The translations under genes and the position numbers were made by a program. From contig JADGBR010000035.1 in NCBI GenBank assembly GCA_015231405.1, positions 1-35,277 of the forward strand: a stretch of 35,277 bases of DNA, in the 5' to 3' direction. The notes below the pieces were generated by a model that saw only the letters and a program-made list of their open reading frames with translations, searched no databases and was not told the origin of the DNA. The DNA is from Candidatus Omnitrophota bacterium. GTDB taxonomy: Bacteria; Omnitrophota; Gorgyraeia; Tantalellales; Tantalellaceae. This document shows, piece by piece, positions 1 through 16,084 of the stretch (its first letter is position 1; each line of letters begins with the position of its first letter).

Positions 1-1254
1 CTGGAAGAGGTCCCACCCGAAGAGGTCTTTGCCAAGCTCAAGGCCATCAATAAATATATGCGCAGCCGGGCTTCAGGAGCGAACGTCAAGCCGCCCGTGT
101 TCGTTAAGCCCCAGAAGAAGATCGCCCGCGTGTCCAGCGACGTTTATACCGAAAAGGTCGAGGAGATCGGAGAGAACATCGAAACGGACGATGATACCGG
201 GACAGGCGAAACGGCGACGGTCGTGCTTCCCGATATCGTTACAAAAGCCGACAGGGTGGCGCGGCTCGGGGTGGGGCTCGATCTCGGCACGGCGTATATA
301 GTGGCGAGCCGCGAGGTCGAGGATAAGAAGGTTTTTGTCAAGAACGAGCGCAACGCTTTTCTATCCGTCCGCTCGGACAATTCCACTAAGGAACTGCTTT
401 CCAAGCTCAAGATAAAATACGTCGCGATGGGCGACCAGCTCTATGTGCTGGGGGCGATGGCGCTTACGCTCGCGGATATTTTCGGACGTGAGACACAGAG
501 GTCCATGAATATGGGCATTCTTAACCCGTCCGAGTCGAGTTCCATACCAATAATAAAGCTCATCGTCGAGAACATTTTGTGGCCGCCGCGCACTAAGGGC
601 GAGATCTGCTGTTTTTCCGTTCCCGCCCAGCCGATAGACAGGGACCAGGACACGATATACCATAAAGGGGTTTTTGAGGGGATACTCCGGGCGATAGGTT
701 TCGACCCGATGATAATAGACGAGGGCTACGCCGTGGTCTTGTCGGAGATGGAAAGTAACGATTTCACGGGCATAGGGGTATCCTGCGGAGGCGGGATGGT
801 GAACGTTTGCGCGGCTTTTAAATGCATGCCCGTTCTTTCGTTCTCTATTACCAGGGGCGGTGACTGGATAGACAGGAGCGCTTCGAGCGTCCTCGGGGTA
901 CCGTCGACGCGGGTCACGGCGATAAAAGAGCAGGGCATGAATATTAAAGATCCGAAAACGAGGGAAGAAGAGGCGATAGCCATATATTATCGAAACTACA
1001 TAAACTATTTTCTTACGAGCATTGCCAAGGTCCTCGGAAAGAGCCAGGATACGCCTAAATTCGAGAAGCCAGTCGATATCGTTTTCGCCGGCGGGTCGAG
1101 CATGGTCGGAGGATTCATGGATGTCGTGGCGGAAGAGATACAGGGAATGAATTTCGGGTTCCAGGTCGGGAAATTGACTAAAGCCGAGGAGCCGTTTACA
1201 AGCGTGGCGAGAGGGTGTCTATTCAACGCGATAACCGCGGAGAAGAAAGGATGA
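1..1254 (+). CDS. Actin-family ATPase (MreB/MamK/ParM-like), 5' end outside the window
   Basis: The frame is open from base 1, so the gene is cut by the left edge and 417 residues are visible. The in-frame ATG at 58 has no good ribosome binding site, so the start is probably upstream. Counting from that ATG, a polar tail of about 65 residues precedes the actin fold. Phosphate-1 is GVGLDLGT (71-78), the phosphate-2 region is GIGVSCGGG (238-246), and an adenosine-type motif is IVFAGGSSMVGG (341-352). This set is typical of the actin/Hsp70 superfamily. The block YVLG...NMGILNP resembles MamK/MreB-class proteins more than DnaK, and no Hsp70 substrate domain follows. Phosphate-2 has Ser where the usual Asp stands, so ATP hydrolysis may be altered. 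The gene overlaps the next by 4 bp (ATGA), and two coiled-coil genes follow, suggesting a filament plus partner proteins. The exact subfamily is not resolved. Confidence 0.8.
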   Translation: MEEVPPEEVFAKLKAINKYMRSRASGANVKPPVFVKPQKKIARVSSDVYTEKVEEIGENIETDDDTGTGETATVVLPDIVTKADRVARLGVGLDLGTAYIVASREVEDKKVFVKNERNAFLSVRSDNSTKELLSKLKIKYVAMGDQLYVLGAMALTLADIFGRETQRSMNMGILNPSESSSIPIIKLIVENILWPPRTKGEICCFSVPAQPIDRDQDTIYHKGVFEGILRAIGFDPMIIDEGYAVVLSEMESNDFTGIGVSCGGGMVNVCAAFKCMPVLSFSITRGGDWIDRSASSVLGVPSTRVTAIKEQGMNIKDPKTREEEAIAIYYRNYINYFLTSIAKVLGKSQDTPKFEKPVDIVFAGGSSMVGGFMDVVAEEIQGMNFGFQVGKLTKAEEPFTSVARGCLFNAITAEKKG

Positions 1255-1889
1255 CGGACGGGTACGTAGAAATGCCTTCGTATTTCAGGAGTTTCCTGAG
1301 AGAGAAGAAAGAGGAAAAAATAGCCTCCGATCCCCTGGCGGCCGTCGCGGAGCTGCGCGACCGGGTCGAGAAGACCCGCGATAAGCGTACGGCCCTCACC
1401 GAGGAGCTGGACCTCATTGAGGGGTCCCTTGACGGTTTTATCGGGAACATGGAACTTATTAACCGGCGTCTTAAGGATATGCACGGGGCTTTGGCGAAAG
1501 TTCCCCAGGCTCCGGAAGCCCCGGTTAAGCCGGCCGCTACAGGCGGAATCTCGATGGACGAGTTTAAGACCTATTTCGAGTCGATGCTGAAAGGGTCGCT
1601 TGAAAGCGTTAGCGACAAGATATCCGACAAGATGGCCAAGATGCTGGGCGAGCTTCGCGGCCTTGCCGGGCCGGCCAGGGAAGCGAAGATACGGGAAATA
1701 GAAGAGGCTACCGGGTTCGCGAACATCGATTTTTCGAAGCTGTACCAGAAAAGCGACGTTCAGTCAAATATCGGCGACGTCGGCGTCGAGGAGAAGGAAT
1801 CTAAAGGGATAGACTCGAGCCTCGATAAACTGAGGAAAATGCGCGGCGGGAAACCCAAAGGTGATAGTTCGGGAGATAAGAAGGCGTAA
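1251..1889 (+). CDS. Small soluble coiled-coil protein coupled to the actin-like gene
   Basis: This gene encodes 212 residues from ATG 1251, which overlaps the upstream stop (ATGA). The purine-rich AGAAGAAAGG just before it can act as ribosome binding site; an ATG at 1215 lies inside the upstream gene and is less likely. The protein is highly charged. Residues about 20-80 form a heptad-rich coiled coil, followed by a Pro/Ala linker, a second helical stretch (about 100-155) and a basic, disordered tail. No signal peptide, membrane segment or catalytic motif is visible and I do not recognise the family. Translational coupling suggests it is made in fixed ratio with the actin-like ATPase and may be its assembly partner. 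The tail contains DKLRKMR, which also occurs just after the membrane anchor of the next protein. Confidence 0.75.
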   Translation: MTDGYVEMPSYFRSFLREKKEEKIASDPLAAVAELRDRVEKTRDKRTALTEELDLIEGSLDGFIGNMELINRRLKDMHGALAKVPQAPEAPVKPAATGGISMDEFKTYFESMLKGSLESVSDKISDKMAKMLGELRGLAGPAREAKIREIEEATGFANIDFSKLYQKSDVQSNIGDVGVEEKESKGIDSSLDKLRKMRGGKPKGDSSGDKKA

Positions 1890-1944
1890 CGAATTGAAAG
1901 TGGTGTATAGAGGTACATCGTCACTGCAAGGACCTGAGAGATGC

Positions 1945-2110
1945 CGTCATTGCGAGGAGCAAAGAGACGCCGTCATTGCGAGGAGCGGAGAGACGCCGTC
2001 ATTGCGAGGAGCGATAGCGACGAAGCAATCTCTATATAGATTGCTTCGGGCACTTCGTGCCCTCGCAATGACGGACAATATTCGCAATGACGGACGATGT
2101 TCGCAATGAC
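1945..2110. repeat. Cloverleaf repeat, copy 1 (three left and three right outer arms)
   Basis: The outer arm CGTCATTGCGAGGAGC occurs three times on the left and CGCAATGACG three times on the right. The central part pairs GAAGCAATC with GATTGCTTC. The right side hairpin is GGGCAC-TTC-GTGCCC (2048-2062). It fills the gap between the two coiled-coil genes; short open frames across it are repeat translation, not genes. Confidence 0.9.
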
Positions 2111-2143
2111 GAATGATATGGAGTTAGTAAAATAGGAGCTACT

Positions 2144-3991
2144 ATGAAAAACATCTTTTACCCTATGTACATATTCGCCGTTATTTTCGCGATATGCGTG
2201 GCTTCTTGGCTGGTCTCCGTGATCAACTATTATTCGCGTATCCTTTTCCCGGAGGATAAACTCCGGAAGATGCGTGACGCGAGGAAACAGAAGGACGCGA
2301 AGATAAAGGAACAGGAAGCCGAGCTGAAAGAGCTGAGGCGGGAGAATGAAAGGCTTTCGAAAGAGCTGGGCGAGCCCAGGGAAGACCGTCCGGCGAAAAA
2401 GGGCTTTTTCAAGTCGAAGGACGATAAGGAGCTTGACGAATTAAGGTCCGAGGTCGAGAAGTTCAGGGAGGAAGCCGCAAAGTCGCGTCTCGAACTCGCG
2501 TCGGCTAAGTCCGAAATATCGGCGCGTTCGGTCGTAGAAAAGGAGACGGCGGGATTAAAGGCCGAGATAGAGAAGAAGGACGCCGAGATAAAGAAACTGA
2601 AAGAAGCTCCGGCGGACGGGTCGAATAACGAGGGCCAGGCTGCGAGAGCCGCTTTAGGCGAGAAGATAAGGGAGCTTGCCTCGAAGGACAGCGAGATAAA
2701 AAGGATGAAAGCCGAGATCGCGCTTATTAACACTAAGAATAAGGAAACGATGGCGGCGACGGGCGAGCTTTCGGTGCGGGATAACGCCATAAACGATCTA
2801 AAAGCGAAGCTTTTAGATAAGGATAGGGAACTTTCGAGGGTCAACGCCGAGATAGGCGATATGCGTAAACGGATGGGGGGACTTGAAAAGGGATCAGAGG
2901 AAGAACTTGCGAAAGCTAAAGAAGACCTCTCGAAACGGGAACATCAACTCACCGCGAAAGAATCCGAGATAAAAAGGCTCGTCGAGGAGACGGTGCGCCT
3001 CAAAGACGACCTGGGCGTCAAGGCGCGGAGGTCTGTCGAAAAAGAAAATGAGATAGAGAAGCTCCGGGCTGAAATTAAGAGCGCCGGCAGCAGGCTGGCC
3101 GCGGCGTCGATATCGGCCGGAGAGGTCGAGGCGAAGAATAAGGAGATAGCGAGGCTGGGAGAAGAGCTTGAGAAAAAAACCGCCGAGTTGTCTACGAAAG
3201 AGCGTGAGATAGAAAAGCTCCGCGCGGAAACCGTCGAGACCCGAGAAAAGTTGAAAGGCGTTTTAAGTTCCGCCGGCGAGGCCGGGCTCAAGGATAAGGA
3301 GATAGTTAAGCTCAGGGAAGAGTCGGTGAAGCTGGGCCGACAGCTGGAAGCTAAAGTGGAAGAAGCGGCGAAGGTCTGGGGAGATCTCGCGGCGAAGGAA
3401 GAGAAACTGCGCGCTGCGGCGTCCGAACTTACCGACGCGAGGGAACGAGTGAAAGGGCTCGAAAAACGGATGCGAGAGGAGGCGACGAGGGTCACTTCCG
3501 AGATCGAAGGGCTTACGAGACAGGTAGCCGCGAAGGAAGTGGAGATAAAAGCTCTCAACAAGGAACTCGCCGAAACTAAGGCAAGTTCCGGTAAAGACGG
3601 GGGATCCCAGGAAGAGATCGAAAAACTGGCCGCCGAGCTCGGCACCGCCCGCGGGAGAATAATCGAACTCGAGAAGACGAAGGGGCCAGTCACCAATATA
3701 AGCGCCGTGGGGGCGGGAGTATCCGAGATAGAGAAGATACTCGACGGGGAAAAGAACGAGATGCATTCGATGAAAATGCGGCTACAGGAATATAAAATGA
3801 AACTGCATCTTCTGAACGAGAAGACCAAAGAGAATGTCGAACTTATCGCCGCTTTCGCAGGGGGCAAGGATTTCGACGAGTTCAGAAAATCGGTGCATAT
3901 GGACGAAACGGCGCGTGAATACGAGGAAACGATAAAGTCGCTCAAGATGAAGAATATCGAACTTGAGAAGAAGTTGGCGAAACCGGAGTGA
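2144..3991 (+). CDS. Membrane-anchored long coiled-coil protein
   Basis: This protein has 615 residues, starting at ATG 2144 with AGGAG about 6 bases upstream. Residues about 4-27 form one hydrophobic segment (MYIFAVIFAICVASWLVSVI); the rest is cytoplasmic if the usual orientation holds. From about residue 40 to 500 the sequence is almost continuous coiled coil, rich in Glu, Lys and Arg, with recurring KEIxxLxxE-type units; a Gly/Val-rich break near 520-535 is followed by a shorter helical end. No ATPase head is present, so it is not an SMC protein. The likely role is a scaffold or tether at the inner membrane. Its place after an actin-like ATPase and a small coiled-coil protein suggests it positions the filament, but that is inference. 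It was probably cotranscribed through repeat copy 1. Confidence 0.8.
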   Translation: MKNIFYPMYIFAVIFAICVASWLVSVINYYSRILFPEDKLRKMRDARKQKDAKIKEQEAELKELRRENERLSKELGEPREDRPAKKGFFKSKDDKELDELRSEVEKFREEAAKSRLELASAKSEISARSVVEKETAGLKAEIEKKDAEIKKLKEAPADGSNNEGQAARAALGEKIRELASKDSEIKRMKAEIALINTKNKETMAATGELSVRDNAINDLKAKLLDKDRELSRVNAEIGDMRKRMGGLEKGSEEELAKAKEDLSKREHQLTAKESEIKRLVEETVRLKDDLGVKARRSVEKENEIEKLRAEIKSAGSRLAAASISAGEVEAKNKEIARLGEELEKKTAELSTKEREIEKLRAETVETREKLKGVLSSAGEAGLKDKEIVKLREESVKLGRQLEAKVEEAAKVWGDLAAKEEKLRAAASELTDARERVKGLEKRMREEATRVTSEIEGLTRQVAAKEVEIKALNKELAETKASSGKDGGSQEEIEKLAAELGTARGRIIELEKTKGPVTNISAVGAGVSEIEKILDGEKNEMHSMKMRLQEYKMKLHLLNEKTKENVELIAAFAGGKDFDEFRKSVHMDETAREYEETIKSLKMKNIELEKKLAKPE

Positions 3992-4005: not shown

Positions 4006-4164
4006 CGTCATTGCGATGAGCAGGAGACGTCGTCATTGCGAGGAGAAAGAGACGTCGTCATTGCGAGGAGGCCCAGAGGCCGACGAAGCAATCCCTATAG
4101 AGATTGCTTCACCCCGCTTTCGCGGGGTTCGCAATGACGGAGAGACTCGAGCTCGCAATGACGG
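4006..4164. repeat. Cloverleaf repeat, copy 2 (three left, two right arms)
   Basis: Three left arms CGTCATTGCGA and two right arms TCGCAATGACG enclose the left hairpin GGCC-caga-GGCC, the central GAAGCAATC/GATTGCTTC pair and the right hairpin ACCCCGC-TTTC-GCGGGGT (4111-4128). An open frame runs through it into the CBS kinase, but that frame only translates the repeat. Confidence 0.9.
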
Positions 4165-4183
4165 ACAGGATAAGGATGGAAAG

Positions 4184-5842
4184 ATGAACCTAAGGCAGTT
4201 CTCGATACTGAGGGCGTCGGACATAATGGCCAGGAAGGTCGTTACAGCCCCTCCCGGCGATACGGTGCGCGAAGCCGTCCGCAAAATGTCAGCGGCCAAT
4301 GTCGGGTCGGTGGTCGTCGTCGACGATAAGAAGAACGTCCTCGGGATATTCACCGAACGGGATATCATGAAAAGGGTCGTAGGCGAAGGGAAGGACCCCG
4401 GAGTTACTGTGATAAAGGACGTAATGACGACCGATCCGGAGACGCTCGTATCTTCGACTTCGGTTTCCGAGATATTCAGGGTGATCAATACCAGGGGTTT
4501 CAGGCATGTCATAATTAAAGACGGAGGAGTTCTCTCCGGCATGGTGTCGGCAAGGGACTTAAGCCGGCTGTTCCTCGAGCTGATCAAGGAAATGCTGTTT
4601 GACGGGCAGGAAGAAAAAAAAGCGCCGCATGAGAAGACCCCCTCGATACTTTTCATCGACGACGAGATAGAGATACTGAACGGGTTAAGCGAGCTTTTCG
4701 AAAAGACGGACTATAAGATATACACCGCGCTTACGGGCGGCGAAGGCCTTGATATTTACTGGCGCGACGCCCCGGACATAGTTTTTACCGATATAATGAT
4801 GCCGGGAGTGAGCGGACTCAGGGTCCTCGAGGAGATAAAAAAGGCGCCGACAAATACCGAAGTCTGCATTATAACAGGCCACGGGACACTGGAAAGCGCC
4901 ATCCAGTCGATGGAAGCCGGGGCTTTCGACTATCTCATAAAACCGGTGGATTTTTCCAGGATAAACATGGTAGTTAAACGCGCGCTTGAAAAACAGAAAC
5001 TGAAGAGGGAGCTCGCGAAACATATCGAAAAGATCGAGGGCATGAACCTCGAGCTGAAAACCCAGCAGCTTCAGATAATCCAGGCGGCCAAGCTGACGGC
5101 GATAGGGGAACTCGGGGCGGGTGTTGCTCATGAGATGAACCAGCCTCTTATGGCCATATCGACCAATATGGAATCGCTTCTCATGAACGATACGGTCAAT
5201 TCCGACGAGAAGCTGAAGACGAAACTAGCCAAGCTCAAGGACCAGTTCGTCCGGCTTTCGAAGATAGTCAGGCGCATGCACGAGTATTCCGGCCAGAGGA
5301 TGGGCGGCGTCGCGCCGGAGGATATCAGCCGGCCGGTCAAGGACGCGGTATACCTTTTCGGACAGCAGTTCAAGGACCACAATATCGCTCTCACTATGGA
5401 TTGCTCCGAGGACCCGCCAAAGGTCGAGATAGACAGGTACCAGATACAGGATGTCGTCGTCAACCTCCTCGTCAACGCCCGCGACGCGGTGGACGAGCGG
5501 TTCAAGCAGTACGAGGGCGGAGCCGTGGATGTGTTCACCAAAAAACATTCCGGGGGTCTCGGCGTTATCGTCGCGGTCATTGATAACGGCATCCCGGTTA
5601 AAGAGGGTACGGAGACAGACATATTCAATATGTTCTTCACCACGAAACCGGTAGGTAAAGGCACGGGCATAGGATTATCCGTATGCCACAACATAATCAA
5701 AAGGCATAGCGGGATAATAGGTTTTCAGCTCCTCGCGGGCGGCCGTAAGATGTTCTATTTTATGATACCGTTCGACAAGAAAAGCGTTTTAGTGAGGAGC
5801 CCGGAGATAGAGGCCGGGATAGTTAAGGAATTTACGGAGTAG
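4184..5842 (+). CDS. CBS-REC-histidine kinase
   Basis: This is a 552-residue cytoplasmic kinase. I start it at ATG 4184 (MNLRQF), with a purine-rich GGATGGAAAG before it; the upstream in-frame extension from 4016 encodes only repeat sequence. Two CBS motifs occupy about 8-130 and usually bind adenosyl ligands such as AMP, ATP or SAM. A receiver follows (about 153-270) with acidic pair D159/D160, phospho-acceptor D203 (FTDIMMP) and K253. The kinase core has H316 in GVAHEMNQPL, the N-box near N427/N431 (NLLVNARDA), VIDNG and GTGIGLSV. No membrane segment or DNA-binding domain is present. The CBS pair could make kinase output depend on adenylate charge, an inference from the family. The REC-coil gene follows after one repeat copy and is the nearest candidate partner. 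Confidence 0.9.
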   Translation: MNLRQFSILRASDIMARKVVTAPPGDTVREAVRKMSAANVGSVVVVDDKKNVLGIFTERDIMKRVVGEGKDPGVTVIKDVMTTDPETLVSSTSVSEIFRVINTRGFRHVIIKDGGVLSGMVSARDLSRLFLELIKEMLFDGQEEKKAPHEKTPSILFIDDEIEILNGLSELFEKTDYKIYTALTGGEGLDIYWRDAPDIVFTDIMMPGVSGLRVLEEIKKAPTNTEVCIITGHGTLESAIQSMEAGAFDYLIKPVDFSRINMVVKRALEKQKLKRELAKHIEKIEGMNLELKTQQLQIIQAAKLTAIGELGAGVAHEMNQPLMAISTNMESLLMNDTVNSDEKLKTKLAKLKDQFVRLSKIVRRMHEYSGQRMGGVAPEDISRPVKDAVYLFGQQFKDHNIALTMDCSEDPPKVEIDRYQIQDVVVNLLVNARDAVDERFKQYEGGAVDVFTKKHSGGLGVIVAVIDNGIPVKEGTETDIFNMFFTTKPVGKGTGIGLSVCHNIIKRHSGIIGFQLLAGGRKMFYFMIPFDKKSVLVRSPEIEAGIVKEFTE

Positions 5843-5872
5843 GTATAGTAGCTAGACAAAGTAAGCACCGGG

Positions 5873-5946
5873 CGTCATTGCGAACCCCGCGAAGGCGGGG
5901 TGAAGCAGTCCATATAGAGATTGCTTCGCTTCGCTCGCAATGACGG
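5873..5946. repeat. Cloverleaf repeat, copy 3 (single, inverted)
   Basis: A single-arm copy bounded by CGTCATTGCGA and TCGCAATGACGG. The strong hairpin ACCCCGC-GAAG-GCGGGGT is on the left side here, where copies 2 and 8 have it on the right, so this copy is in reverse orientation. It lies between the CBS kinase and the REC-coil gene. Confidence 0.85.
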
Positions 5947-5979
5947 CTGTAAGTTGCTAATGGTAATAAGGGGGGAGAA

Positions 5980-6516
5980 ATGGCTGATAGATTAAGGAAA
6001 GGGCTTGTGCTGATAGTCGACGACGAGGAGCCGATAAGGGAATCTTTAAGCGAACTCCTGGAAGCGTGCAGGTACGAAGTCCTCGTCGCAGACTGCGTCG
6101 ATAATGCCATCAAAGTGATAGATAAACACGCCGATATAGACGCGATAATAAGCGATCTCAAAATGCCCGGTAAGCCCGGCACGGAGCTATTGCACTATAT
6201 CTACAAGACCGGTAAGAAGATCCCCCTCATGTTCCTTACGGGTTTCGCTACGCTCGAAACATGCCAGCAGGCCGTCCGGGAAGGCGCATTCGATTACATC
6301 CTTAAGCCCATAGACGATAAAGACAAGATCCTCATGCCACTTAAACACGCCATAGACCAGTCGGGTCTCGAAAAAAAGAACAAAGAGCTCCAGCAGGAGA
6401 TCCTCAGGATGGCCGAAGAACACCAGGAACTGATGGACCAGCTCCTCGACGACGCCGAGACCAGGGACATCGTCCAGAAAAAAATAAACGACATTGTGGA
6501 AAAATGGAAAGAGTGA
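5980..6516 (+). CDS. Response regulator with C-terminal coiled coil
   Basis: This gene encodes 178 residues, starting at ATG 5980 after a strong GGGGGGAGA ribosome binding site. Residues 8-125 form a receiver: IVDDEE acidic pocket, phospho-acceptor D59 (ISDLKMP), T87 and K109 (LKPID). The C-terminal 55 residues are a charged, heptad-like helix (KKNKELQQEILRM and on) with no DNA-binding, enzymatic or kinase domain. Such regulators act by protein contact or dimerisation. It follows the CBS-REC kinase, separated only by repeat copy 3, and is a plausible target of that kinase. The last helix might contact another coiled-coil protein, such as those encoded upstream, which is speculation. Confidence 0.9.
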   Translation: MADRLRKGLVLIVDDEEPIRESLSELLEACRYEVLVADCVDNAIKVIDKHADIDAIISDLKMPGKPGTELLHYIYKTGKKIPLMFLTGFATLETCQQAVREGAFDYILKPIDDKDKILMPLKHAIDQSGLEKKNKELQQEILRMAEEHQELMDQLLDDAETRDIVQKKINDIVEKWKE

Positions 6517-6572
6517 CAGGGACATCCCGATAAGGACCTGTTTGCGGACGCGACGGCCGATCCGGATAAATG

Positions 6573-6600
6573 TTGACAAAGATCATGCGAATGGTAAGGT
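6573..6600 (+). promoter_or_regulatory. Probable sigma-70 promoter of the metal-efflux operon
   Basis: TTGACA (6573-6578) and TAAGGT (6595-6600) are separated by 16 bases. The first gene starts at 6610, so the leader would be only a few bases. The only Shine-Dalgarno-like bases (AAGGTG) overlap the -10 element. Confidence 0.5.
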
Positions 6601-6609
6601 GACTAACAT

Positions 6610-6873
6610 ATGGCCTTCAAGGTAATGACATTAGTTCTCGTGTCGGCATCCCTCTTCCTGGCGTTAGATTTCTGCGGTGATCTATGTTCAGCCGATGAAG
6701 TCGATCAGCACTGTGTCAGTTGTTGCGCCGCTGGTTGTCACAATGCGGCCGTATTGTCGGCGCGGAGCTTTACTGAACCGTCTTTCTCATCGTACCTTTT
6801 TCACATAAACGTCCTCATCCGCCAGGAGCGGTTCTTAAGAGACATCGAGTGCCCTCCTAAGCGCGTTATCTAA
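6610..6873 (+). CDS. Small Cys-rich exported protein of the efflux operon
   Basis: This gene encodes 87 residues. The N-terminus is a probable signal sequence (MAFKVMTLVLVSASLFLALDF) with possible cleavage after CSA near residue 28. The mature part begins with a dense thiol/imidazole cluster, HCVSCCAAGCH, which could bind soft metals such as Cu, Ag, Zn or Cd. The rest is short and has no known domain. It is the first gene of the operon for the TolC-like channel, adaptor and RND pump. Small periplasmic Cys/His proteins at the head of heavy-metal pumps often act as metal chaperones or sensors; that role here is inferred. I do not recognise a named family. Coding status is supported by the signal sequence and the position right after a promoter. 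Confidence 0.6.
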   Translation: MAFKVMTLVLVSASLFLALDFCGDLCSADEVDQHCVSCCAAGCHNAAVLSARSFTEPSFSSYLFHINVLIRQERFLRDIECPPKRVI

Positions 6874-6950
6874 AAGGCGGAAGTAATTTATATTCCGTGG
6901 TCAGCTCTTTCCGGACAGTGAATATCCTATTTACAAGAGAGGTTTGCCGA

Positions 6951-8207
6951 ATGATCAACAGAATCTGGATCATCGTAACGATAATAGCGGTTTTTATGAA
7001 CGCTATCCCCAAAGCAGTATATGCCGGCGAAGCGTTAACATTAGAAAGAGCCTTGTCGCTGGCTTATGAGAACAATCCGGACATGGTCGAAGCCGGAAAG
7101 AACATTGATGCGGCCAAAGGGGATATGATAACCGTAAGCAGTTTAGCCGCCCCCGAGGCCGAGTTTGAGATAAGCGGGTTGAAACAAAACGATGGAGGGG
7201 AACGCGATCCTCATCTCGGAGGCTTTTCGATAACGCAGAGATTTGATCCTCCCGGTGTTTTGGGGTTAGAGAGAAAGATCTCAAAACGCCGGATCTCGAT
7301 ACGGGAAGAAACCAGGAGGGTCGTCTGGTCCAGGGTTTACACGGAGGTAAGAGATGAGTATTCTCATATCATCCTGGACAATAAAGTCCAAGGATTGGCA
7401 AATGAAAAGCTTAACATCATGAGGCAGTTCTTTGGACGCGTGCAGCAGCAATTTCAATCGGGAAAAGCGATAAAAAACGACCTGCAGCGCGCTAAACTGG
7501 AATTATTGAACGCGGAAAATGATCTATTAGCCGGCGAAAAGGAAATAAGAACGGAGAAAGCCAAGCTCAACCTGCTTTTGGGGCGTCCGATGGAAACCCC
7601 ATTTGAGATAGAGGGAGAACTTGAAGAAGAGGAACTTGTCCTTGATCTGGAGAAATTGACCGGGTACGCGATGGAGCTGAATCCCGAGATCAAGACAGAA
7701 GGGCTTCTTCTTGAGTCCAAAGAAAATGATCTCGGAAGGGAGCAGCTTAACCGGTTCCCGGCCCTATTTGCCGGTTTTAAAGGGACGAATGAGGATTACG
7801 ATAATGATTATTCGGCTGTCGCGGGGTTTAGCGTCCCCATATGGGACCTGAACCAAGGCGGGGTAAAGAAGGCAAAGGCTGAAAAAGAGGCGCAAGCGGC
7901 AAGGTTTGAAGCTGTAAGGAGAGAGATCGCTTTCAGTGTATTTGAAGCATATCTTAACGCGGAGTTGGCTGGGAGGCAGTTCGCGCTTCATAAGAGGTCG
8001 CTTGATGAAGCGAATGAGCTTCTCCAGCTGGCGAATCTCCGATACAGTGAAGGCGAGATAAATTTTCTCAGTTTTCTCGATCAGGTGAAAGCGGCCATAG
8101 AAACAAGGGTCAGGTATTACCAAGGGCTGTATAACCTTTCGAAAGCTATTACTGAGCTTGAAAAGGCGGTTTATATGTCGGTTCGACAGGAGGGATATTT
8201 AAAATGA
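6951..8207 (+). CDS. TolC-family outer-membrane efflux channel (CusC/CzcC-like)
   Basis: This is a 418-residue protein from ATG 6951, with AGAGAGG upstream. A GTG at 6897 would add 18 residues in front of a clear signal peptide, so I reject it. The signal peptide runs MINRIWII...AVYA, with cleavage after about residue 25. The mature protein begins with LTLERALSLAYENNP, the usual opening of outer-membrane efflux proteins, and has the two internally similar alpha-helical halves (such as LQRAKLELLNAENDL and LRYSEGEINFLSFLDQVKA). It forms the periplasm-spanning tunnel of a tripartite pump. Length matches the metal-pump subgroup. It overlaps the adaptor gene by 4 bp (ATGA), so channel and adaptor are translationally coupled. 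Confidence 0.9.
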   Translation: MINRIWIIVTIIAVFMNAIPKAVYAGEALTLERALSLAYENNPDMVEAGKNIDAAKGDMITVSSLAAPEAEFEISGLKQNDGGERDPHLGGFSITQRFDPPGVLGLERKISKRRISIREETRRVVWSRVYTEVRDEYSHIILDNKVQGLANEKLNIMRQFFGRVQQQFQSGKAIKNDLQRAKLELLNAENDLLAGEKEIRTEKAKLNLLLGRPMETPFEIEGELEEEELVLDLEKLTGYAMELNPEIKTEGLLLESKENDLGREQLNRFPALFAGFKGTNEDYDNDYSAVAGFSVPIWDLNQGGVKKAKAEKEAQAARFEAVRREIAFSVFEAYLNAELAGRQFALHKRSLDEANELLQLANLRYSEGEINFLSFLDQVKAAIETRVRYYQGLYNLSKAITELEKAVYMSVRQEGYLK

Positions 8208-9160
8208 GAATTCTCAAATTATCGTTAATTATTTTAATTTCTTTCGGTTTGGGGGCGGCGGTATCACGGAGTCTTTCAGGCAAAGCCGTGCCTAAAGCGG
8301 AAAAAGCCGAGGTGTGCCATGAAGAGGCGGAAGAGCTCAAGCTGAGCGAAAGAGCGCAGGAGCTTATCGCGTTAAATACGGAAAAGGCCCGGCTTGGTAC
8401 GTTCAGTAAGAGTATCCCGGTCATAGGCGAGATCGCCGAGGACGCTGAAACGTCGGTTCATGTGGTTTCCCCGGTAAGAGGCGAAATTACGGAAACGAAA
8501 GCGGGGATCGGTTCGGTCGTCAAAGAGGGCGATGTGCTATGCAGAGTATCTGAAATGAACGGTGAGACGGCGATCCATGAAGTCAAGGCTCCGATCGCGG
8601 GCACGGTAATTGGAGCTTTCGCCAAAGTTAAAGACATGGTCGATACGGTATCCTCCGTGTATACCATCGCTGACCTTACCAAGCTATCGGCAACGTTTGA
8701 TGTTTACGAAAAGGACATTTCCGGGATCAAATTAGGCCAGAAGGTAACGATCCATTCCATCGCATACCCTGACAAAGTCTTTGAAGGAGCGATCACGTTT
8801 ATTTCTCACAGGGTCGATGAAAACTCGAATACGATAAAGGTGCGCGCGCTCGTAAAGAATCCGGATAATTTTCTTAAGCTGGGGATGTTCGTTAACGCCG
8901 ATATTATGATCGAGTCGGAGGGTAGAGCTATCGTTTTGCCTAAGGGAGCCGTTTATACGATGAATTCCAAAAAGGTCGTTTATATCAAGACGGCCTCCGA
9001 TAAATTCGAGGCGAGGGAAATTAAAGTCCGGGATGAGAACACTCGCGAGGTGGTCCTCGCCGAGGGTGTCAGCGAAGGGGAAGAAGTTGTTGTAGAGAAC
9101 GGCTTCCTTCTTAAATCGGAATCGTTGAGATCAAGAATGGGCGATGGTTGCGCTGAATAG
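8204..9160 (+). CDS. Periplasmic adaptor (HlyD/CusB family) lacking the alpha-hairpin
   Basis: This gene encodes 318 residues from ATG 8204, preceded by AGGAGGG inside the upstream gene. An N-terminal hydrophobic segment (residues 4-21) anchors or exports it. The two lipoyl half-motifs, about 86-118 (VVSPVRGEITETKAGIGSVVKEGD) and 124-157 (HEVKAPIAGTVIGAFAKVKDMV), follow each other with about five residues between them. In most RND adaptors 60 or more residues of alpha-hairpin stand there to dock the outer-membrane channel. A beta-barrel domain (about 160-240) and membrane-proximal domain complete it. Cys/His near the N-terminus (VCHEE) and a Cys near the C-terminus could contact metal. It probably links the RND pump at 9183 to the TolC-like channel in a non-standard way. 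Confidence 0.9.
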   Translation: MRILKLSLIILISFGLGAAVSRSLSGKAVPKAEKAEVCHEEAEELKLSERAQELIALNTEKARLGTFSKSIPVIGEIAEDAETSVHVVSPVRGEITETKAGIGSVVKEGDVLCRVSEMNGETAIHEVKAPIAGTVIGAFAKVKDMVDTVSSVYTIADLTKLSATFDVYEKDISGIKLGQKVTIHSIAYPDKVFEGAITFISHRVDENSNTIKVRALVKNPDNFLKLGMFVNADIMIESEGRAIVLPKGAVYTMNSKKVVYIKTASDKFEAREIKVRDENTREVVLAEGVSEGEEVVVENGFLLKSESLRSRMGDGCAE

Positions 9161-9182
9161 CCATAGGAAGGAGAAATAGCCG

Positions 9183-12100
9183 ATGAATAGTTTTTTGTCA
9201 TTTGTATTGCGTCAGCGGGTTTTGGTCATTTTCATGACGCTTGGGATCGTTGCCGCGGGCGCCGCCGCGTGGATAAAGATCCCGATCGACGCATACCCCG
9301 ACGTTACCAACGAACAAGTAATGATACTTACCCAGGCGCCCGGCCTTGCGCCGGTAGAAGTGGAACGGCTTATCAGCACCCCTCTTGAAAATGAAATGAA
9401 CGGACTCCCCAAAGTAACTATGATACGGTCTCTTTCAAAGGCGGGGCTTTCGCAGGTTGTCGTTGTGTTTGACGATTCAACCGACATATATTTCGCCAGG
9501 CAGATAGTCTTTGAGCGGATCCAGACGGCAAGGGAGAATCTTCCGGAAGGGGTTCTGCCTGAACTTGGGCCTATCAGTACCGGGCTCGGCGAGATATATC
9601 AGTATACCCTTGAAGGAAAAGACTCGGACTTGACCGAAATGAGGACGGTGCAGGATTGGGTCATACGGCCTCAGCTGCGTACTATCCCCGGCGTTACGGA
9701 GATAAACTCATTCGGCGGCTTCGCGAAGCAGTATCAGGTAATTGTTGACCCGGACCGCCTCATGAAATACGGGCTTACCCTCCAAAGCGTTACGGGATCA
9801 TTAATAAAAAATAACTCTACGGCCGCGGCCAACTACATTGTTACCGGCCAGGAACAGATCGTTGTCAGGGGAAACGGGCTGATCAGGTCGTTGGACGATA
9901 TCGGGAGCATCGTGCTTGCCGGCGTCAAAGGCGCTCCCGTATATGTGCGTGATATCGCCGATATCCGGATAGGGCACGAGATCCGCTGGGGCGCGGCGAC
10001 ACGGGACGGGAAAGGCGAGACGGTTATCGGCATGGCGATAATGCTAAAAGACGCCAATTCAAAAACAGTAGTCGATAAGATAAAGAGGGGTATTGAAAGG
10101 ATCGAAGAACGCCTGCCGGACGGGATCAGGATAAAACCATTTTACGACCGGACCGAACTTATCAAGGCATGCATAGACACCGTCGTTAAAGCGCTCCTCG
10201 AAGGCGGCGTGCTGGTCATTCTTATCCTCTTTTTGTTCCTGGGAGATTTCCGGACCGCGACGGTAGTATGTTTGTCACTGCCCTTATCCGCGCTTATCAC
10301 TTTTATCATGATGAGATGTTTCGGCCTTTCCGCGAATTTGATGTCCCTGGGCGGGCTTGTTATCGCCATGGGGATGATCGTTGACGCGAGTATCGTGGTC
10401 GCGGAGAATATATTCAGGCATCTATCGAGAAGGAAAGGCGTTCTGGGAGAGGAAAAGACGGCAGTTTGTCTTAGCGCGACGATAGAGGTAGCGCGGCCGA
10501 TATTTTTCGCGATCCTTATCACCATAATAACCAAGGTGCCTCTTTTTGCCCTTCAGTCGGTAGAAGGCAAGATGTTCAAGCCTATGGCCTTTACTCTTAT
10601 TTTTGCCATGGCAGGGTCGCTGCTTATATCGTTCACTATCGTGCCGGTAATAGGGTCTTACTTCATTAGGGGCAGTGCAAAAAATGAAGAGAGCGCCGTT
10701 ATCCGATGGGTCAAGAGGTTCTATATGCCTCTATTGCAGAAGGCGATCAGGGCGAGGAAAACAACTGCGCTTTTCGCGCTTTTCCTGTTCATTGTGTCCA
10801 TCCTGCTTTTCCGGTTTGTCGGCACCGAGTTCTTGCCGTACATGGATGAAGGCTCTATCGCGATCAACATCGTGAAGTTCCCGACCGTATCGCTGGAAGA
10901 GTCTAAACGTATCGGAGACCAGATAGAAAAAATGCTGCTTGAGTTCCCTGAAGTGGGAACGGTTGTCACGAAGACAGGCCGCGCCGAGATCGCTGAAGAC
11001 CCGATGGGCCCTGAGCAGAACGACGTGTTCGTCATGCTTAAGCCCAAAAAGCTGTGGAAAGCGAGATCCAAAATGGAGCTGATCGCTCAAATGGAAGCGA
11101 AGCTCTTAGAGCTCCCGGGTATCAAGCTGACCTTTTCACAGCCGATCGCTTTAAGGGTGAATGAACTGATATCGGGCATAAAGTCCGACGTCGCGGTGAA
11201 GGTCTTTGGCTACGACCTTGCGCTTCTGGCCGAAAAAGCGGAAGAGATAGAGCATATTATCGGCGGTATTCATGGCGCGAAAGACATAAAAGTCGAGCAG
11301 ATCGCCGGGTTCCTGCAGCTTAATATCGATATCGACCGCGCGGCCATTGCCCGGTATGGCATAAACGTGAGCGATGTAAATGAGATCATAGAGACCGCGG
11401 TCGGAGGTAAAGCGGCCGGTACGGTGTATGAGGAAGACCGCCGTTTCGACCTCGTCGTGCGATTCCCTGAAACCCGGCGGAACAGTGAAAAAGCGATAGG
11501 TGATATACTTGTAACCTCCCCGCATGGTCAAAGTGTGCCCTTGGGTCAGATCGCGAGGATAGATCTCGTAGAAGCGCCGAATCAGATAAGCCGCGAGAAC
11601 GGGATGCGCCGGGTCGTTATAGAGGCTAATGTCAGAGGAAGAGATATCGGCAGTTTCATTTCTGAAGCCCAGAAGAAGATCGGTAAAGTCGAAAAGGAGC
11701 TTCCATCTGGATATTACATCGATTGGGGCGGTCAGTTTGAGAACCAGGAGCGCGCGATGAGAACGCTTTCGGTAGTCGTACCTGTAGTAATGCTGATAAT
11801 CTTTATACTGCTTTTTTCCGCTTTTGGCTCCCTGAAGCCTGCCGTTCTAGTACTTATGAATCTGCCGTTCGCGTTGGTTGGCGGTATATTCACCGTATTG
11901 ATATTTAAGATCACGCTGAGCGTATCGGCTGTAGTCGGATTTATCACATTGTTCGGTATAGCGGTAGCTAACGGGACGGTATTGGTGGCATTCTTTATAC
12001 AACTTCGGCGGGAAGGGATGGGGCTTAACGAGGCTATCGTTAAAGGCTGCGAAGTTCGTCTTCGCCCGCTTCTTATGACAAGTCTTACCGCGACGCTAGG

Positions 12101-12257
12101 GCTGGTCCCCGTGCTTCTGGCGACCGGACCAGGTTCCGAGATCCAAAAGCCTCTTGCCGCGGTCGTGATGGGAGGGCTTGTTTCATCATTTGCGCTCACG
12201 ATGTTCGTGCTGCCTGTATTGTATGGATGGATCGAAAAGGGTGAGGCCGCGAAGTAG
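9183..12257 (+). CDS. RND heavy-metal efflux pump (CzcA/CusA family)
   Basis: This is a 1024-residue inner-membrane proton antiporter from ATG 9183, with AGGAAGGAGA 8-17 bases upstream. It has the full duplicated RND layout: a membrane segment at 11-31, a periplasmic porter domain, a bundle at about 337-490, a second periplasmic loop and a C-terminal bundle. The proton-relay segment is GMIVDASIVVAEN, with D401 and E408. At the position of the CzcA extra Asp in this helix there is A395, as in CusA-type pumps. The periplasmic block NELISGIKSDVAVKVFG is CzcA-like and lacks the Met residues of the CusA copper triad as far as I can align by eye. The substrate is a heavy metal of uncertain identity. 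It is the last gene of the efflux operon and works with the channel and adaptor upstream. Confidence 0.9.
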   Translation: MNSFLSFVLRQRVLVIFMTLGIVAAGAAAWIKIPIDAYPDVTNEQVMILTQAPGLAPVEVERLISTPLENEMNGLPKVTMIRSLSKAGLSQVVVVFDDSTDIYFARQIVFERIQTARENLPEGVLPELGPISTGLGEIYQYTLEGKDSDLTEMRTVQDWVIRPQLRTIPGVTEINSFGGFAKQYQVIVDPDRLMKYGLTLQSVTGSLIKNNSTAAANYIVTGQEQIVVRGNGLIRSLDDIGSIVLAGVKGAPVYVRDIADIRIGHEIRWGAATRDGKGETVIGMAIMLKDANSKTVVDKIKRGIERIEERLPDGIRIKPFYDRTELIKACIDTVVKALLEGGVLVILILFLFLGDFRTATVVCLSLPLSALITFIMMRCFGLSANLMSLGGLVIAMGMIVDASIVVAENIFRHLSRRKGVLGEEKTAVCLSATIEVARPIFFAILITIITKVPLFALQSVEGKMFKPMAFTLIFAMAGSLLISFTIVPVIGSYFIRGSAKNEESAVIRWVKRFYMPLLQKAIRARKTTALFALFLFIVSILLFRFVGTEFLPYMDEGSIAINIVKFPTVSLEESKRIGDQIEKMLLEFPEVGTVVTKTGRAEIAEDPMGPEQNDVFVMLKPKKLWKARSKMELIAQMEAKLLELPGIKLTFSQPIALRVNELISGIKSDVAVKVFGYDLALLAEKAEEIEHIIGGIHGAKDIKVEQIAGFLQLNIDIDRAAIARYGINVSDVNEIIETAVGGKAAGTVYEEDRRFDLVVRFPETRRNSEKAIGDILVTSPHGQSVPLGQIARIDLVEAPNQISRENGMRRVVIEANVRGRDIGSFISEAQKKIGKVEKELPSGYYIDWGGQFENQERAMRTLSVVVPVVMLIIFILLFSAFGSLKPAVLVLMNLPFALVGGIFTVLIFKITLSVSAVVGFITLFGIAVANGTVLVAFFIQLRREGMGLNEAIVKGCEVRLRPLLMTSLTATLGLVPVLLATGPGSEIQKPLAAVVMGGLVSSFALTMFVLPVLYGWIEKGEAAK

Positions 12258-12298
12258 CGGAGGGATGACTCGGGGAGGATACGGAGGGGAAATAATAG

Positions 12299-12327
12299 TT
12301 GACGTTTATAAACAGGATTGATAGCCT
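12299..12327 (+). promoter_or_regulatory. Possible promoter of the porin gene
   Basis: TTGACG (12299-12304), 17 bases, then TAGCCT (12322-12327). A short palindrome GATAG-C-CTATC (12320-12330) overlaps the -10 element and could be an operator. The match is moderate. Confidence 0.35.
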
Positions 12328-12416
12328 ATCAAAGAACGTTCTCGGAGGCGGCTCGGCCTTCTGGCCAATGCTTCTAGGGGGTGGGGAGGGGAATAGTATA
12401 TAACTTGGGGGGAGTC

Positions 12417-13910
12417 ATGAAACGGATATTTGCCGGATTTATCCTTTGCCTTGTCTCGGTCGCGGGAAGCGCGTTCTCCGAAGGGGTCTCTAACGAGCAG
12501 ATAATGAAGGAAATGAAAGAGCTCCGGGACGTTGTTAAGGCCCAGAACGAGCGGATAACCCGGCTTGAAGCGAAGCTCGCCGAAAAGGGCCAAGGACTCG
12601 CCGCCTCCTCAGCGTCGGTCCCGGAAGCTAAGGATGTGGAAGGCATTAGAAAAAGCCTGTTGCCCGAAATAAAGGACGAGGTCCGATGCGCCGTGGATTC
12701 AGAGCTGAATAAGAGGGATATAAGGATAGCGGATCAGGGATATACGATCCCCGGCGGCTTGAATATAGGCGCCGACGGCACATTCGTTTTTCAGGGCACG
12801 CCTAACGCCAATAATGCCGGAGACGGCGAGGACGACCGCTTCGACGGCGGATGGTCGTCGGACATAGAGATCACAAAAGATTTTTGTTATGACGAGTACG
12901 GGAAAGGACTTGTCCTAATACTTTTCGAAACGGGCGATAATGATATCCTCGGGGATGATCTCAACCTGTTCACTTTCACGAATTACGATATCGACAATTC
13001 AGACTCAATGCTGAGGCTCACCGAACTCTGGTACGAGCATCATCTTTTCGATGACCAGCTGGTGCTCCGAGGCGGAAAGATCGACGTCGGGAGCCGGTCG
13101 ATAGACACGAACGCTTTTGCTAACGACGAGACCAGTCAGTTCCTCTCGGACATGTTCAGGAATTCTCCGGTTATAGAATTCGCCTCCGGGAGTAACGCCT
13201 ACAGGGTTTTGGGAGGAAGCGCGGCCGTTAAGCCCGCGTGTATAAAATATGTGGAGCTCAGCGGCGGATACTATAACGCCGACGGTTCATGGGATCAGGT
13301 ATTCAGCCATCCTTTCTACACCGGGGAGATAAACCTTATGCCCGACAAGCTCATGGAATGGGACGAAGACCAGTGGGGCGGAAATTACAGGTTCTATTCC
13401 TGGGTGAATGATCTGAAACATACGAAGATAGTCGAGTACGGGGTGGACCCGAATACGGGTAGTACCGATGTCTCGACGCGGATTAACAGGGCTAATTATG
13501 GTTTCGGGATGAGCCTCGACCAGAAAATAACCGATGTCTACGGAGTTTTCGGTCGGGCCGGCTGGCAAAGGCCCGAGCTTGTTCCGATAGCGGGCACTGC
13601 GACGCTATACGCCGCATGGTCAGCCGGCGCCCAGATGACCGGTAAATACTGGAATAGAACGGGCGACGTTCTCGGCGCGGCTATAGGTACCGTGTACCCC
13701 AGCGAACGATACATCTCGTCTACCGACCCGGGCAGGCCCTCATCGCCCGAGACGCATTTCGAGACTTATTACAATATCCGTATCAACCCGCACTTATCCA
13801 TATCACCCGACCTCCAGTGGATATGGGATCCCTTCGGCGTGGGACGCGCCGACCAGGGCGACCACGACGCGATATTCATATACGGGCTTCGCTGTCAGTT
13901 GGATTTCTAA
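12417..13910 (+). CDS. Outer-membrane porin, OprB-like, with N-terminal coiled coil
   Basis: This is a 497-residue protein. I choose ATG 12417 (MKRIFAGF), with GGGGGGAG about 5 bases upstream; the ATG at 12381 adds a tail before the signal peptide. The signal peptide ends after about residue 21. Residues 25-58 form a short coiled coil (EQIMKEMKELRDVVKAQNERITRLEAKL) like those that trimerise or tether porins to the cell wall. From about residue 100 the sequence shows alternating beta strands with aromatic girdles and paired Asp/Asn turns. It ends in QLDF, the C-terminal Phe recognised by the barrel-assembly machinery. The pattern matches carbohydrate-selective OprB-type porins, but substrate cannot be told. 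It stands between the metal pump and the phosphate region with its own likely promoter. Confidence 0.75.
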   Translation: MKRIFAGFILCLVSVAGSAFSEGVSNEQIMKEMKELRDVVKAQNERITRLEAKLAEKGQGLAASSASVPEAKDVEGIRKSLLPEIKDEVRCAVDSELNKRDIRIADQGYTIPGGLNIGADGTFVFQGTPNANNAGDGEDDRFDGGWSSDIEITKDFCYDEYGKGLVLILFETGDNDILGDDLNLFTFTNYDIDNSDSMLRLTELWYEHHLFDDQLVLRGGKIDVGSRSIDTNAFANDETSQFLSDMFRNSPVIEFASGSNAYRVLGGSAAVKPACIKYVELSGGYYNADGSWDQVFSHPFYTGEINLMPDKLMEWDEDQWGGNYRFYSWVNDLKHTKIVEYGVDPNTGSTDVSTRINRANYGFGMSLDQKITDVYGVFGRAGWQRPELVPIAGTATLYAAWSAGAQMTGKYWNRTGDVLGAAIGTVYPSERYISSTDPGRPSSPETHFETYYNIRINPHLSISPDLQWIWDPFGVGRADQGDHDAIFIYGLRCQLDF

Positions 13911-13937
13911 TAGACCATAGACCATGGACCATGGACC
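13911..13937. repeat. Short tandem heptamer (CCATAGA/CCATGGA)
   Basis: The bases after the porin stop repeat a 7-base unit about four times: CCATAGA, then CCATGGA twice. A related stretch (AGTCCATAGTCCATGGTC) is near 31048. It has no coding sense. Confidence 0.6.
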
Positions 13938-13964
13938 TTTGGCGGACGGGTTTAGGGTTCCCAT

Positions 13965-14003
13965 GTTACGCAAAATTAAATAAAGTATTTGATTTTGCGT
14001 AAC
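13965..14003. repeat. Near-perfect AT-rich palindrome
   Basis: GTTACGCAAAAT (13965-13976) is exactly inverted at 13992-14003. Inside, AAATA and TATTT pair around the loop AAG with one T/G mismatch between the two stems, giving a hairpin of about 18 pairs. No T-run follows, so it is not a standard terminator. It may be a small mobile palindromic element or a regulatory hairpin between the porin and brnT. Confidence 0.7.
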
Positions 14004-14015
14004 TGTTCAGAGCAC

Positions 14016-14044
14016 TTGACATATGTACAAAATGTATGTACACT
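14016..14044 (+). promoter_or_regulatory. brnTA promoter with TGTACA operator candidate
   Basis: TTGACA (14016-14021), 17 bases, TACACT (14039-14044). Two TGTACA boxes (14024-14029 and 14037-14042) start 13 bases apart, the second overlapping the -10. Toxin-antitoxin operons of this family are autorepressed by the antitoxin, so these boxes are likely binding sites. Confidence 0.65.
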
Positions 14045-14061
14045 ATATTTGGGATTAGAGC

Positions 14062-14340
14062 ATGAAATATGAATGGGATTATCGGAAAAACCGGAACAAT
14101 ATTGAAAAACACGGTTTGGATTTCAATGATGCGGTGTTATTTTTTGAGAACCCGTATTTAACATTTTCTGATCTCAGGTTCAATTATGGGGAGGAAAGGT
14201 ATTTTGCTATAGGGACCATCAGATCGCGGGTAATTGTGCTTATATTCACGAAAAGAAAAGACACGATACGCATAATATCTATGAGGAAAGCAAATGAAAG
14301 GGAAAGCAAAAAATTCAAGGACAGATTGGGAAAAAATTGA
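14062..14340 (+). CDS. brnT: BrnT-family ribonuclease toxin
   Basis: This gene encodes 92 residues from ATG 14062, with a weak GGGATTAG ahead. The sequence follows the BrnT family closely along its length: YEWDYRKNRNNIEKHGLDFNDA at the start, GEERYFAIG in the middle and RIISMRKANERESKKF at the end. BrnT toxins are RNase-fold ribonucleases that stop translation and are neutralised by BrnA. The toxin-first order and the 47-base overlap with the next gene are typical. The likely catalytic or RNA-contacting residues are the conserved Trp/Asp, Lys/His and Arg positions in these blocks. Expression is likely autoregulated through the TGTACA boxes just upstream. Base composition is lower in GC than in neighbouring genes, which suggests horizontal acquisition. 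Confidence 0.9.
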   Translation: MKYEWDYRKNRNNIEKHGLDFNDAVLFFENPYLTFSDLRFNYGEERYFAIGTIRSRVIVLIFTKRKDTIRIISMRKANERESKKFKDRLGKN

Positions 14341-14560
14341 TCTATTGGCGGATAAGCAGATCGACTACTCCGAGATCCCCGAACTGGATGAACTCTTCTG
14401 GGAAAACGCTGAAATTGTCCATCCACGCGCAAAGGTTAAAGTTACGATACGAATAAAGCCGAGAGTTCTCGAATGGTTTAAATCCCGGGGAAAGGGTTAC
14501 CAGACAAGAATAAATTCGATACTGGAAGCATATATCGAAGCGGTCCAAAAACACAAATAA
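14294..14560 (+). CDS. brnA: BrnA-family antitoxin
   Basis: This gene encodes 88 residues from ATG 14294 inside the end of brnT, with GAGGAAAG as ribosome binding site. The N-terminal half is acidic and flexible (IDYSEIPELDELFWENAEIV), the usual toxin-wrapping part. The C-terminal half, KVKVTIRIKPRVLEWFKSRGKGYQTRINSILEAYIEA read as separate segments, is a ribbon-helix-helix DNA-binding fold typical of BrnA. It would bind BrnT and repress the shared promoter. The start codon choice is supported by the ribosome binding site and by the usual BrnT/BrnA overlap. No other domain is seen. Confidence 0.9.
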   Translation: MKGKAKNSRTDWEKIDLLADKQIDYSEIPELDELFWENAEIVHPRAKVKVTIRIKPRVLEWFKSRGKGYQTRINSILEAYIEAVQKHK

Positions 14561-14586
14561 CAATAATAATCCTCCGATCATAATCA

Positions 14587-14641
14587 TTGACAACATCCTC
14601 GCCGGCAGGTACAATTTAGCAATGTCTACTGGAATTGTAGA
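14587..14641 (+). promoter_or_regulatory. Promoter of the Rrf2-pst operon with operator candidate
   Basis: TTGACA (14587-14592), 17 bases, TACAAT (14610-14615) is a near-consensus sigma-70 promoter, with start of transcription expected near 14622. A small dyad TCTAC-7-GTAGA (14625-14641) lies right after it, where a repressor such as the Rrf2 protein could sit. Confidence 0.7.
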
Positions 14642-14673
14642 GTATAAAATGTTGAAAATCGATAAGGCTCGAG

Positions 14674-15096
14674 ATGAAACTTTCTAAAAAGGCTGAGTAC
14701 GCGCTCAGGGCTATGACGGAGCTGGTGACGGCGGGCGGGGATGGGCCCGTCAGGATAGCTCAAATATCCAGGAACGAGAAGATACCCAGGAAGTTCCTCG
14801 AGCGGATACTTAACGACCTTAAAAAGGGCGGGATCCTTAAGAGCGTGCGCGGGGCGCGGGGGGGATATATCCTGGCAAAAGAACCCGCGGATATCACTTT
14901 CGCCGATGTGGTGCGGTTGATGGACGGGCCTTTGGCGCCTCTCCGGTGCGTGAGCAAATACGCGCATGTTAAGTGTTCCCGGGAGAAGATCTGTTTATTG
15001 AAGAACGTAATGATGGAAGTGCGTAACGCCGTAGCGGGGGTCCTCGAGACGAGGACATTCGCGGATGTGGCGGAAGTGAAAAGGAGGAAAAAGTGA
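14674..15096 (+). CDS. Rrf2-family transcriptional regulator with three cysteines
   Basis: This is a 140-residue protein from ATG 14674. The N-terminal winged helix is typical of Rrf2/IscR/NsrR: MKLSKKAEYALRAM, then IPRKFLERILNDLKKGGIL and SVRGARGGYILAK (the wing). Three cysteines, C92, C101 and C107 (spacing C-x8-C-x5-C), match the cluster-binding loop of Fe-S members such as IscR and NsrR, whose spacing differs slightly. It may therefore sense iron-sulphur status, oxygen or nitric oxide. The stop overlaps the GTG start of pstS (GTGA), so regulator and phosphate transporter are co-translated. Linking Rrf2 to phosphate uptake is unusual, since PhoB or PhoU normally fills this place. Confidence 0.9.
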   Translation: MKLSKKAEYALRAMTELVTAGGDGPVRIAQISRNEKIPRKFLERILNDLKKGGILKSVRGARGGYILAKEPADITFADVVRLMDGPLAPLRCVSKYAHVKCSREKICLLKNVMMEVRNAVAGVLETRTFADVAEVKRRKK

Positions 15097-16031: not shown

Positions 16032-16046
16032 CGAACAGAAACCGTA

Positions 16047-16076: not shown

Positions 16077-16084
16077 ATTTAATA

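Follow-up and report, generated by a model that had tools for sequence, protein, structure and literature searches.

A volactin-family actin gene at the end of a conserved gene cassette that probably arranges magnetosomes in Omnitrophota

What do an actin-like gene and two coiled-coil genes do together at the very start of a contig of an uncultured Omnitrophota bacterium? The window, that is the whole stretch of DNA analyzed here, comprises bases 1-35277 of contig C28 (JADGBR010000035.1) of genome G000 (GCA_015231405.1), and its base 1 is an assembly break. It opens with an actin-family gene (VolB) coupled to the gene of a small coiled-coil protein (CC2) and followed by that of a long membrane-anchored coiled-coil protein (CC3). 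The original prediction, based on the letters of the window, described this arrangement and offered a magnetosome system as an analogy. We confirmed the arrangement as three open reading frames (ORFs) with an ATGA overlap and a hydrophobic segment in CC3, and we found that the analogy is close to literal, because the genes co-occur and are linked with magnetosome genes in relatives. G000 itself has a magnetosome cluster and MamK. We consider it likely that the three genes are the last, downstream part of a cassette that is conserved in the magnetosome islands of magnetotactic Omnitrophota, with filament-based magnetosome arrangement as the most likely mechanism. The direct basis of this reading is gene order, protein family, predicted fold, the magnetosome cluster in the same genome, and co-occurrence and linkage in relatives. 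The features concerned, all of which lie on the forward strand, are the following.

1-1254, +: VolB, actin B, of the volactin family; 417 residues, 5' end lost at the contig start
16-72, +: helix at the N-terminus of VolB with the second copy of the repeated motif xxKLxxINxYxRxRA, whose first copy is missing past the contig end
271-1230, +: actin domain of VolB (PF25216 positions 3-321), actin fold
274-291, +: phosphate-1 loop of VolB, GLDLGT (from the motif table)
769-798, +: phosphate-2 loop of VolB, GIGVSCGGGM, with Ser where MamK and MreB carry Asp
1251-1889, +: CC2, small all-helical coiled-coil protein of 212 residues, C-terminal half conserved
2144-3991, +: CC3, long membrane-anchored coiled-coil protein of 615 residues, with a conserved C-terminal motif
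2168-2224, +: transmembrane segment predicted in CC3 (residues 9-27, with a hydropathy of 2.54 across 19 residues)

Scanning genome contigs yielded 155 relatives, the best matches being in Omnitrophota. The three-gene arrangement is not due to chance, since the same order is found in a second genome, G015, where the actin is 67-68%, CC2 57% and CC3 34% identical. The genes upstream of VolB are absent from the window because the assembly breaks at the start of contig C28, and the original prediction had rightly placed them outside it. We read them in relatives and on another contig of G000 (C65), and they encode a ParA ATPase, HEAT proteins, a further coiled-coil protein (CC1) and a second actin (actin A). 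The full order on contig C93 of G015 is HEATa - small - HEATb - small - small - ParA - CC1 - actin A - actin B - CC2 - CC3 - kinase. On G000:C65 we found HEATa, small, HEATb, small, ParA, CC1 and actin A, and HEATa, ParA, CC1 and actin A are 60-89% identical to the genes of the relative. In this contig (L013), positions 560-628 are a run of N, and an inverted join lies inside actin A at around 1241, probably a misassembly. Overall, the order HEATa - small - HEATb - ParA - CC1 - actin A - actin B - CC2 - CC3 - kinases is detectable in at least 14 Omnitrophota loci, and it recurs in L065-L079 with small losses where contigs end. The cassette ParA carries the Walker A motif KGGVAKTT, and CC1, a basic coiled-coil protein, is encoded directly downstream of it.

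To relate the cassette to magnetosomes, we used the magnetochrome domain PF18509, which is specific to magnetosomes, as marker and 384 Omnitrophota genomes as the sample of the phylum. In G000, contig C21 has five PF18509 matches in a cluster at 4138-18472, among CDF pairs and mam-type genes, and MamK lies on contig C16 (25788-26789; 427.5 bits against the NCBIfam cut-off of 400). In the stretches read, MamK is located away from other mam genes in G000 and in six other Omnitrophota genomes, and a conserved gene of around 150 codons adjoins it in 7 out of 7 genomes. Magnetochrome is present in 12 of the 384 genomes. The cassette occurs in every one of these, in two cases as a part: in G367 (C37) it runs from HEATa to actin A, where the contig ends, and in G229 (C48) a 59-residue remnant of actin B is followed by CC2 and CC3. 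Tandem actin pairs also occur in 12 of the 384 genomes, 10 of which are magnetochrome-positive (P-value 2.5e-16, hypergeometric test for pairs alone, ignoring kinship). Of the two genomes with the pair and no magnetochrome, Cal1bin1 (G342) has MamK and was published as magnetotactic (PMC5955933), and AM5_bin-0692 (G188) showed no marker. Six further genomes with the cassette are all magnetochrome-positive. A published collection of metagenome-assembled genomes derives from magnetically enriched samples and was checked for magnetosome clusters by its authors (PMC7602337). Many of the named genomes used here look as if they came from such samples, as matched by naming style, the individual bins being absent from the main text of that paper.

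The association is also physical. Cassette and magnetochrome genes share a contig in five relatives (G343, G246, G226, G439 and G438), as on G246:C11 and G226:C11, and in three of these genomes (G343:C111, G439:C11 and G438:C33) the cassette continues unbroken into mam/feo genes. On G343:C111, the cassette at 6.7-17 kb is followed on the same strand by FeoB (20.3-22.4 kb), CDF pairs, magnetochrome genes and MamE/N/O/P-like genes. The second actin pair lies on the other side of the cluster, at 64.3-66.4 kb. The NCBIfam scores for MamB (239.5 bits), MamN (270.3), MamP (209.6) and MamE (249.9) in G343 are all below the strict equivalog cut-offs, and we therefore treat these genes as homologues and not as certified equivalogs. 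The magnetosome cluster of G343 also hosts a tetrapyrrole block (L272; G343:C111:41-48 kb), composed of genes for glutamyl-tRNA reductase, aminolevulinate (ALA) dehydratase, porphobilinogen deaminase, HemD/methylase and a radical S-adenosylmethionine (SAM) protein. The block is found also on G246:C11 and G438:C33, and perhaps it serves the magnetochromes.

By its Pfam match (PF25216; 265.6 bits with the cut-off at 35; E 9.4e-79; positions 3-321 of 321), the window actin belongs to the volactins, and its predicted fold is that of an actin. It shares 68% identity with its G015 orthologue of 491 residues (G015:C93:6545-8020), from which we judged that around 57 N-terminal residues are missing. 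The AlphaFold model has a mean predicted local distance difference test (pLDDT) score of 84.6, and its best solved match in Foldseek is the MamK filament 5LJV (E 1.2e-14), followed by MreB. A PDB search with the single VolB sequence gave zero matches, and a profile of five members reached the actin-like ATPase structures 5LJW, 5JYG and 5LJV, named as MamK, at E values around 1e-4. The original prediction had drawn an analogy with MamK and its accessory coiled-coil proteins. For the actin, the likeness to MamK holds for the actin fold and the magnetosome context, but VolB lies outside the MamK clade and is instead a volactin, Mad28-like, and one of two tandem actins. It is 22.8% identical to the MamK of G000, falls in a separate clade of the tree, and scores 19.5 bits against the cut-off of 400 of the MamK model NF040964. 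At the phosphate-2 position, MamK and MreB of G000 show IDIGxGT, while the Ser of VolB is common to Planctomycetota, viral and haloarchaeal volactins. VolB is not among the PF06723 matches of G000, and we rejected it as an MreB. As for ParM, PilM and FtsA, the competing classes named in the original prediction, none of them matches in its Pfam or NCBIfam results, where Volactin is the best match.

The N-terminal tail further distinguishes actin B. The motif xxKLxxINxYxRxRA occurs twice in 10 out of 11 complete VolB homologues by regular expression, and in the eleventh (L077) the second copy was recognized by eye. Most actin A proteins do not have this helical tail. In the AlphaFold model of the window protein, the helix spans residues 6-24 with pLDDT around 95. 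The amphipathic moment of the truncated window tail was reached by 59 out of 500 shuffles; since it is not above the shuffled values and the tails of the homologues were not shuffle-tested, we take amphipathicity as a lead only.

The start of CC2 overlaps the end of VolB by the ATGA at 1251-1254 and is preceded by GAAAGG, which points to translational coupling. In the predicted structure of CC2, residues 28-82 make up one long helix, most of it with pLDDT over 90, and the 3.5-residue periodicity of the protein exceeds that of all 200 shuffles. The family comprises 14 members, shows nothing consistent against Pfam and has no viral relative that we could find. In CC3, a hydrophobic segment near the N-terminus is present in 13 out of 13 homologues, and most members share the C-terminal motif EKTKE...FRKSIHMD. 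The heptad signal of CC3 also peaks at 3.5, yet it lies just inside the shuffle maximum (0.423 versus 0.462). Profile comparison detected no relation between CC2 and CC3. Palindromic repeats (GTCATTGCGAGGAG...CGAAGCAATC) lie on both sides of CC3 (window 1919-2110 and 4010-4150) and recur across the window.

Tandem actins are found also outside the cassette. G000 has a second pair on contig C42 (12393-13466 and 13453-14643), with no other cassette genes, and the same holds for L083, L085, L088, L125 and L127; L083 (nCal2bin1) has three tandem volactins instead of two. A regulator of the HTH_17 type (G000:C42:11370-11954) is divergent from the second pair of G000, and small HTH_17 regulators that have a TPGGHR motif in common occur repeatedly in magnetosome clusters. 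In the tree, the window actin lies inside the clade of cassette VolB proteins. Cassette actin B and the B' copies of the second pairs are grouped (support 89/99), and the A and A' copies are joined weakly. The Planctomycetota volactins are separate, and a further group unites haloarchaeal volactins with viral ones and with two single volactins of Omnitrophota. The grouping of B with B' and the joining of A with A' suggest a duplication into A and B followed by duplication of the whole pair, with the A side unsure because of long branches. Volactin-family actins are also encoded by the huge phages LR745208.1 and LR756511.1 (485 and 595 kb) and by many viral contigs (L145-L224). Neither of the two that were tested against PHROGs falls in one of its families, and the window actin has none there either. 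We rejected an origin from a phage or mobile element, as the viral volactins are separated in the tree from the pairs of Omnitrophota, no viral relative of CC2 was found and the actin has no PHROGs family.

Which known system does the cassette resemble? We compared it, by description and not by Mad sequences, with the Mad28 module of Desulfobacterota and Nitrospirota. In both cases a second actin accompanies MamK in the magnetosome island; such an actin distinct from MamK lies in or beside the magnetosome cluster in five relatives, and for the window itself this holds by synteny only. Mad28 is described as having an SxGxG phosphate-2 loop and an xExx connecting region (PMC10653835), both of which are found in the window actin. 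Mad28 filaments are abolished when the N-terminal amphipathic helices are truncated (PMC12713370), and cassette actin B has a repeated helical motif before the actin domain, with amphipathicity as a lead only. Next to mad28 lies mad29 (PMC9376291), which encodes a protein with an ATPase domain (PMC9840458). In RS-1, MamK and Mad28 act with the coiled-coil proteins Mad20/25/26 and the HEAT protein Mad23, and loss of mad28 shifts the chains off the concave side (PMC12748827). The cassette has proteins of these kinds, namely a neighboring ParA ATPase, HEAT and coiled-coil proteins. It differs in that it has two diverged tandem actins, frequently alongside another tandem pair at a different site, and in that CC2 has no Pfam family. 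With the haloarchaeal volactins, such as Haloferax volcanii VolA, the window actin shares the Pfam family and the phosphate loops, and its Haloarcula relative is around 38% identical. It differs from them in being bacterial, in the tandem pair, in the N-terminal helical extension and in the magnetosome-island context. The single volactins of Planctomycetota are 46-50% identical to the window actin and differ by their single copy and by the lack of magnetochrome (32 out of 32 genomes tested). We found no publication naming both Mad28 and volactin.

Several observations weigh against a role in magnetosome arrangement. Neither magnetochrome nor MamK was found in one genome with the cassette (G188, AM5_bin-0692, 84% complete). 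Volactin occurs in only one out of four magnetochrome-positive Planctomycetota, as a single copy and with no cassette neighbors, and none of the 32 volactin carriers tested in this phylum has magnetochrome. One planctomycete cluster (G796:C33) has MamK and no volactin. The SxGxG loop is present in all volactins tested, including the Planctomycetota carriers without magnetochrome. It is thus not specific to magnetosomes, and we discarded it as a mark of Mad28. Finally, the cassette and the mam genes of G000 lie on different contigs, so that their linkage in this genome is by synteny only.

Part of these data would fit a general cytoskeleton for cell shape or cell size, similar to archaeal volactin, which large-genome Omnitrophota carry and which is a mere neighbor of the magnetosome genes. 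Haloferax volactin acts in cell shape, namely disk shape (PMC10869688), single volactins without magnetochrome exist in Planctomycetota, and the Omnitrophota with the pair mostly have larger genomes than their relatives without it. However, in family f1 the pair is found in only two of 19 genomes, which are the two magnetochrome-positive ones, the cassette is continuous with mam/feo genes in three genomes, and its HEAT, coiled-coil and ATPase make-up fits the Mad module. We regard this explanation as unlikely. Even less probable is DNA segregation, in which ParA and the actin filaments would partition the chromosome or a plasmid. In favor of this reading is the ParA-type ATPase, which is immediately followed by its basic coiled-coil partner, but no ParB-type gene was recognized among the scanned cassette proteins, the actin is unlike ParM by profile, a membrane-anchored partner gene is present, and the cassette is located in the magnetosome island.

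Downstream of CC3, the window continues with two signaling genes.

4184-5842, +: CBS-receiver-histidine kinase hybrid (Pfam CBS, Response_reg, HisKA, HATPase)
5980-6516, +: response-regulator protein paired with the kinase (Response_reg, E 5e-24)

Homologues of the kinase, 48-55% identical and with a response regulator, lie beside the cassette in L068, L069, L071, L073, L074 and L075, and homologues of the response regulator, 56-65% identical, occupy the same place in relatives. A signaling or motility scaffold driven by these adjacent multi-sensor kinases, as a platform for magneto-aerotaxis, is highly improbable: kinases and response regulators do follow CC3 in most loci, but the kinase architecture differs among loci while actins, CC2 and ParA are constant, and among the scanned cassette proteins we recognized none for chemoreception, pili or gliding. 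Beyond the end of the cassette, the window has an efflux operon of the OEP/HlyD/AcrB type (6897-12257) and a PBP/ABC-type, phosphate-like transporter (15093-18833), whose G343 homologues lie beyond the second actin pair.

Returning to magnetosome arrangement, the cassette probably arranges or anchors these magnetic organelles by means of a filament other than the usual one of MamK, because the gene set sits in the magnetosome gene island of related uncultured bacteria. We rate it as a Mad28-type variant of the magnetosome cytoskeleton with a tandem, diverged pair of actins of the archaeal volactin family, a likeness drawn from published descriptions and with a presumed function. The original prediction proposed a filament system that positions a cargo at the membrane. 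The magnetosome context supports this proposal, with positioning itself presumed; altogether, the support for the earlier interpretation is stronger than its author had stated. Since the parts of the cassette are of the same kinds as those of the Mad28 module, we infer an actin filament that is tied to the membrane and places the magnetosomes, and with it polymerization, membrane anchoring, partner contacts and cargo. Actins A and B would form the filament, either as a copolymer or as two filaments. CC3 would tie it to the inner membrane, CC1/CC2 and the HEAT proteins may bridge it to the magnetosomes, and the ParA ATPase, together with basic CC1, may space or partition the chains. MamK, encoded elsewhere, would have a separate job. 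A bolder version, to which we give only tentative credit, is that A and B are obligate partners in a two-component, CC3-tethered and ParA-regulated magnetosome filament, and that the Mad28 actins as a group descend from the volactin family, which haloarchaea, Planctomycetota and huge phages also have.

How organelles are placed in magnetotactic bacteria outside Pseudomonadota is an open question that has so far been tractable mainly in RS-1. The two-actin module, the membrane-anchored coiled-coil protein and ParA provide a defined set of parts that is testable in a surrogate host. If the Mad28 actins belong to the volactins, one actin family would serve both the placement of bacterial organelles and the shaping of archaeal cells.

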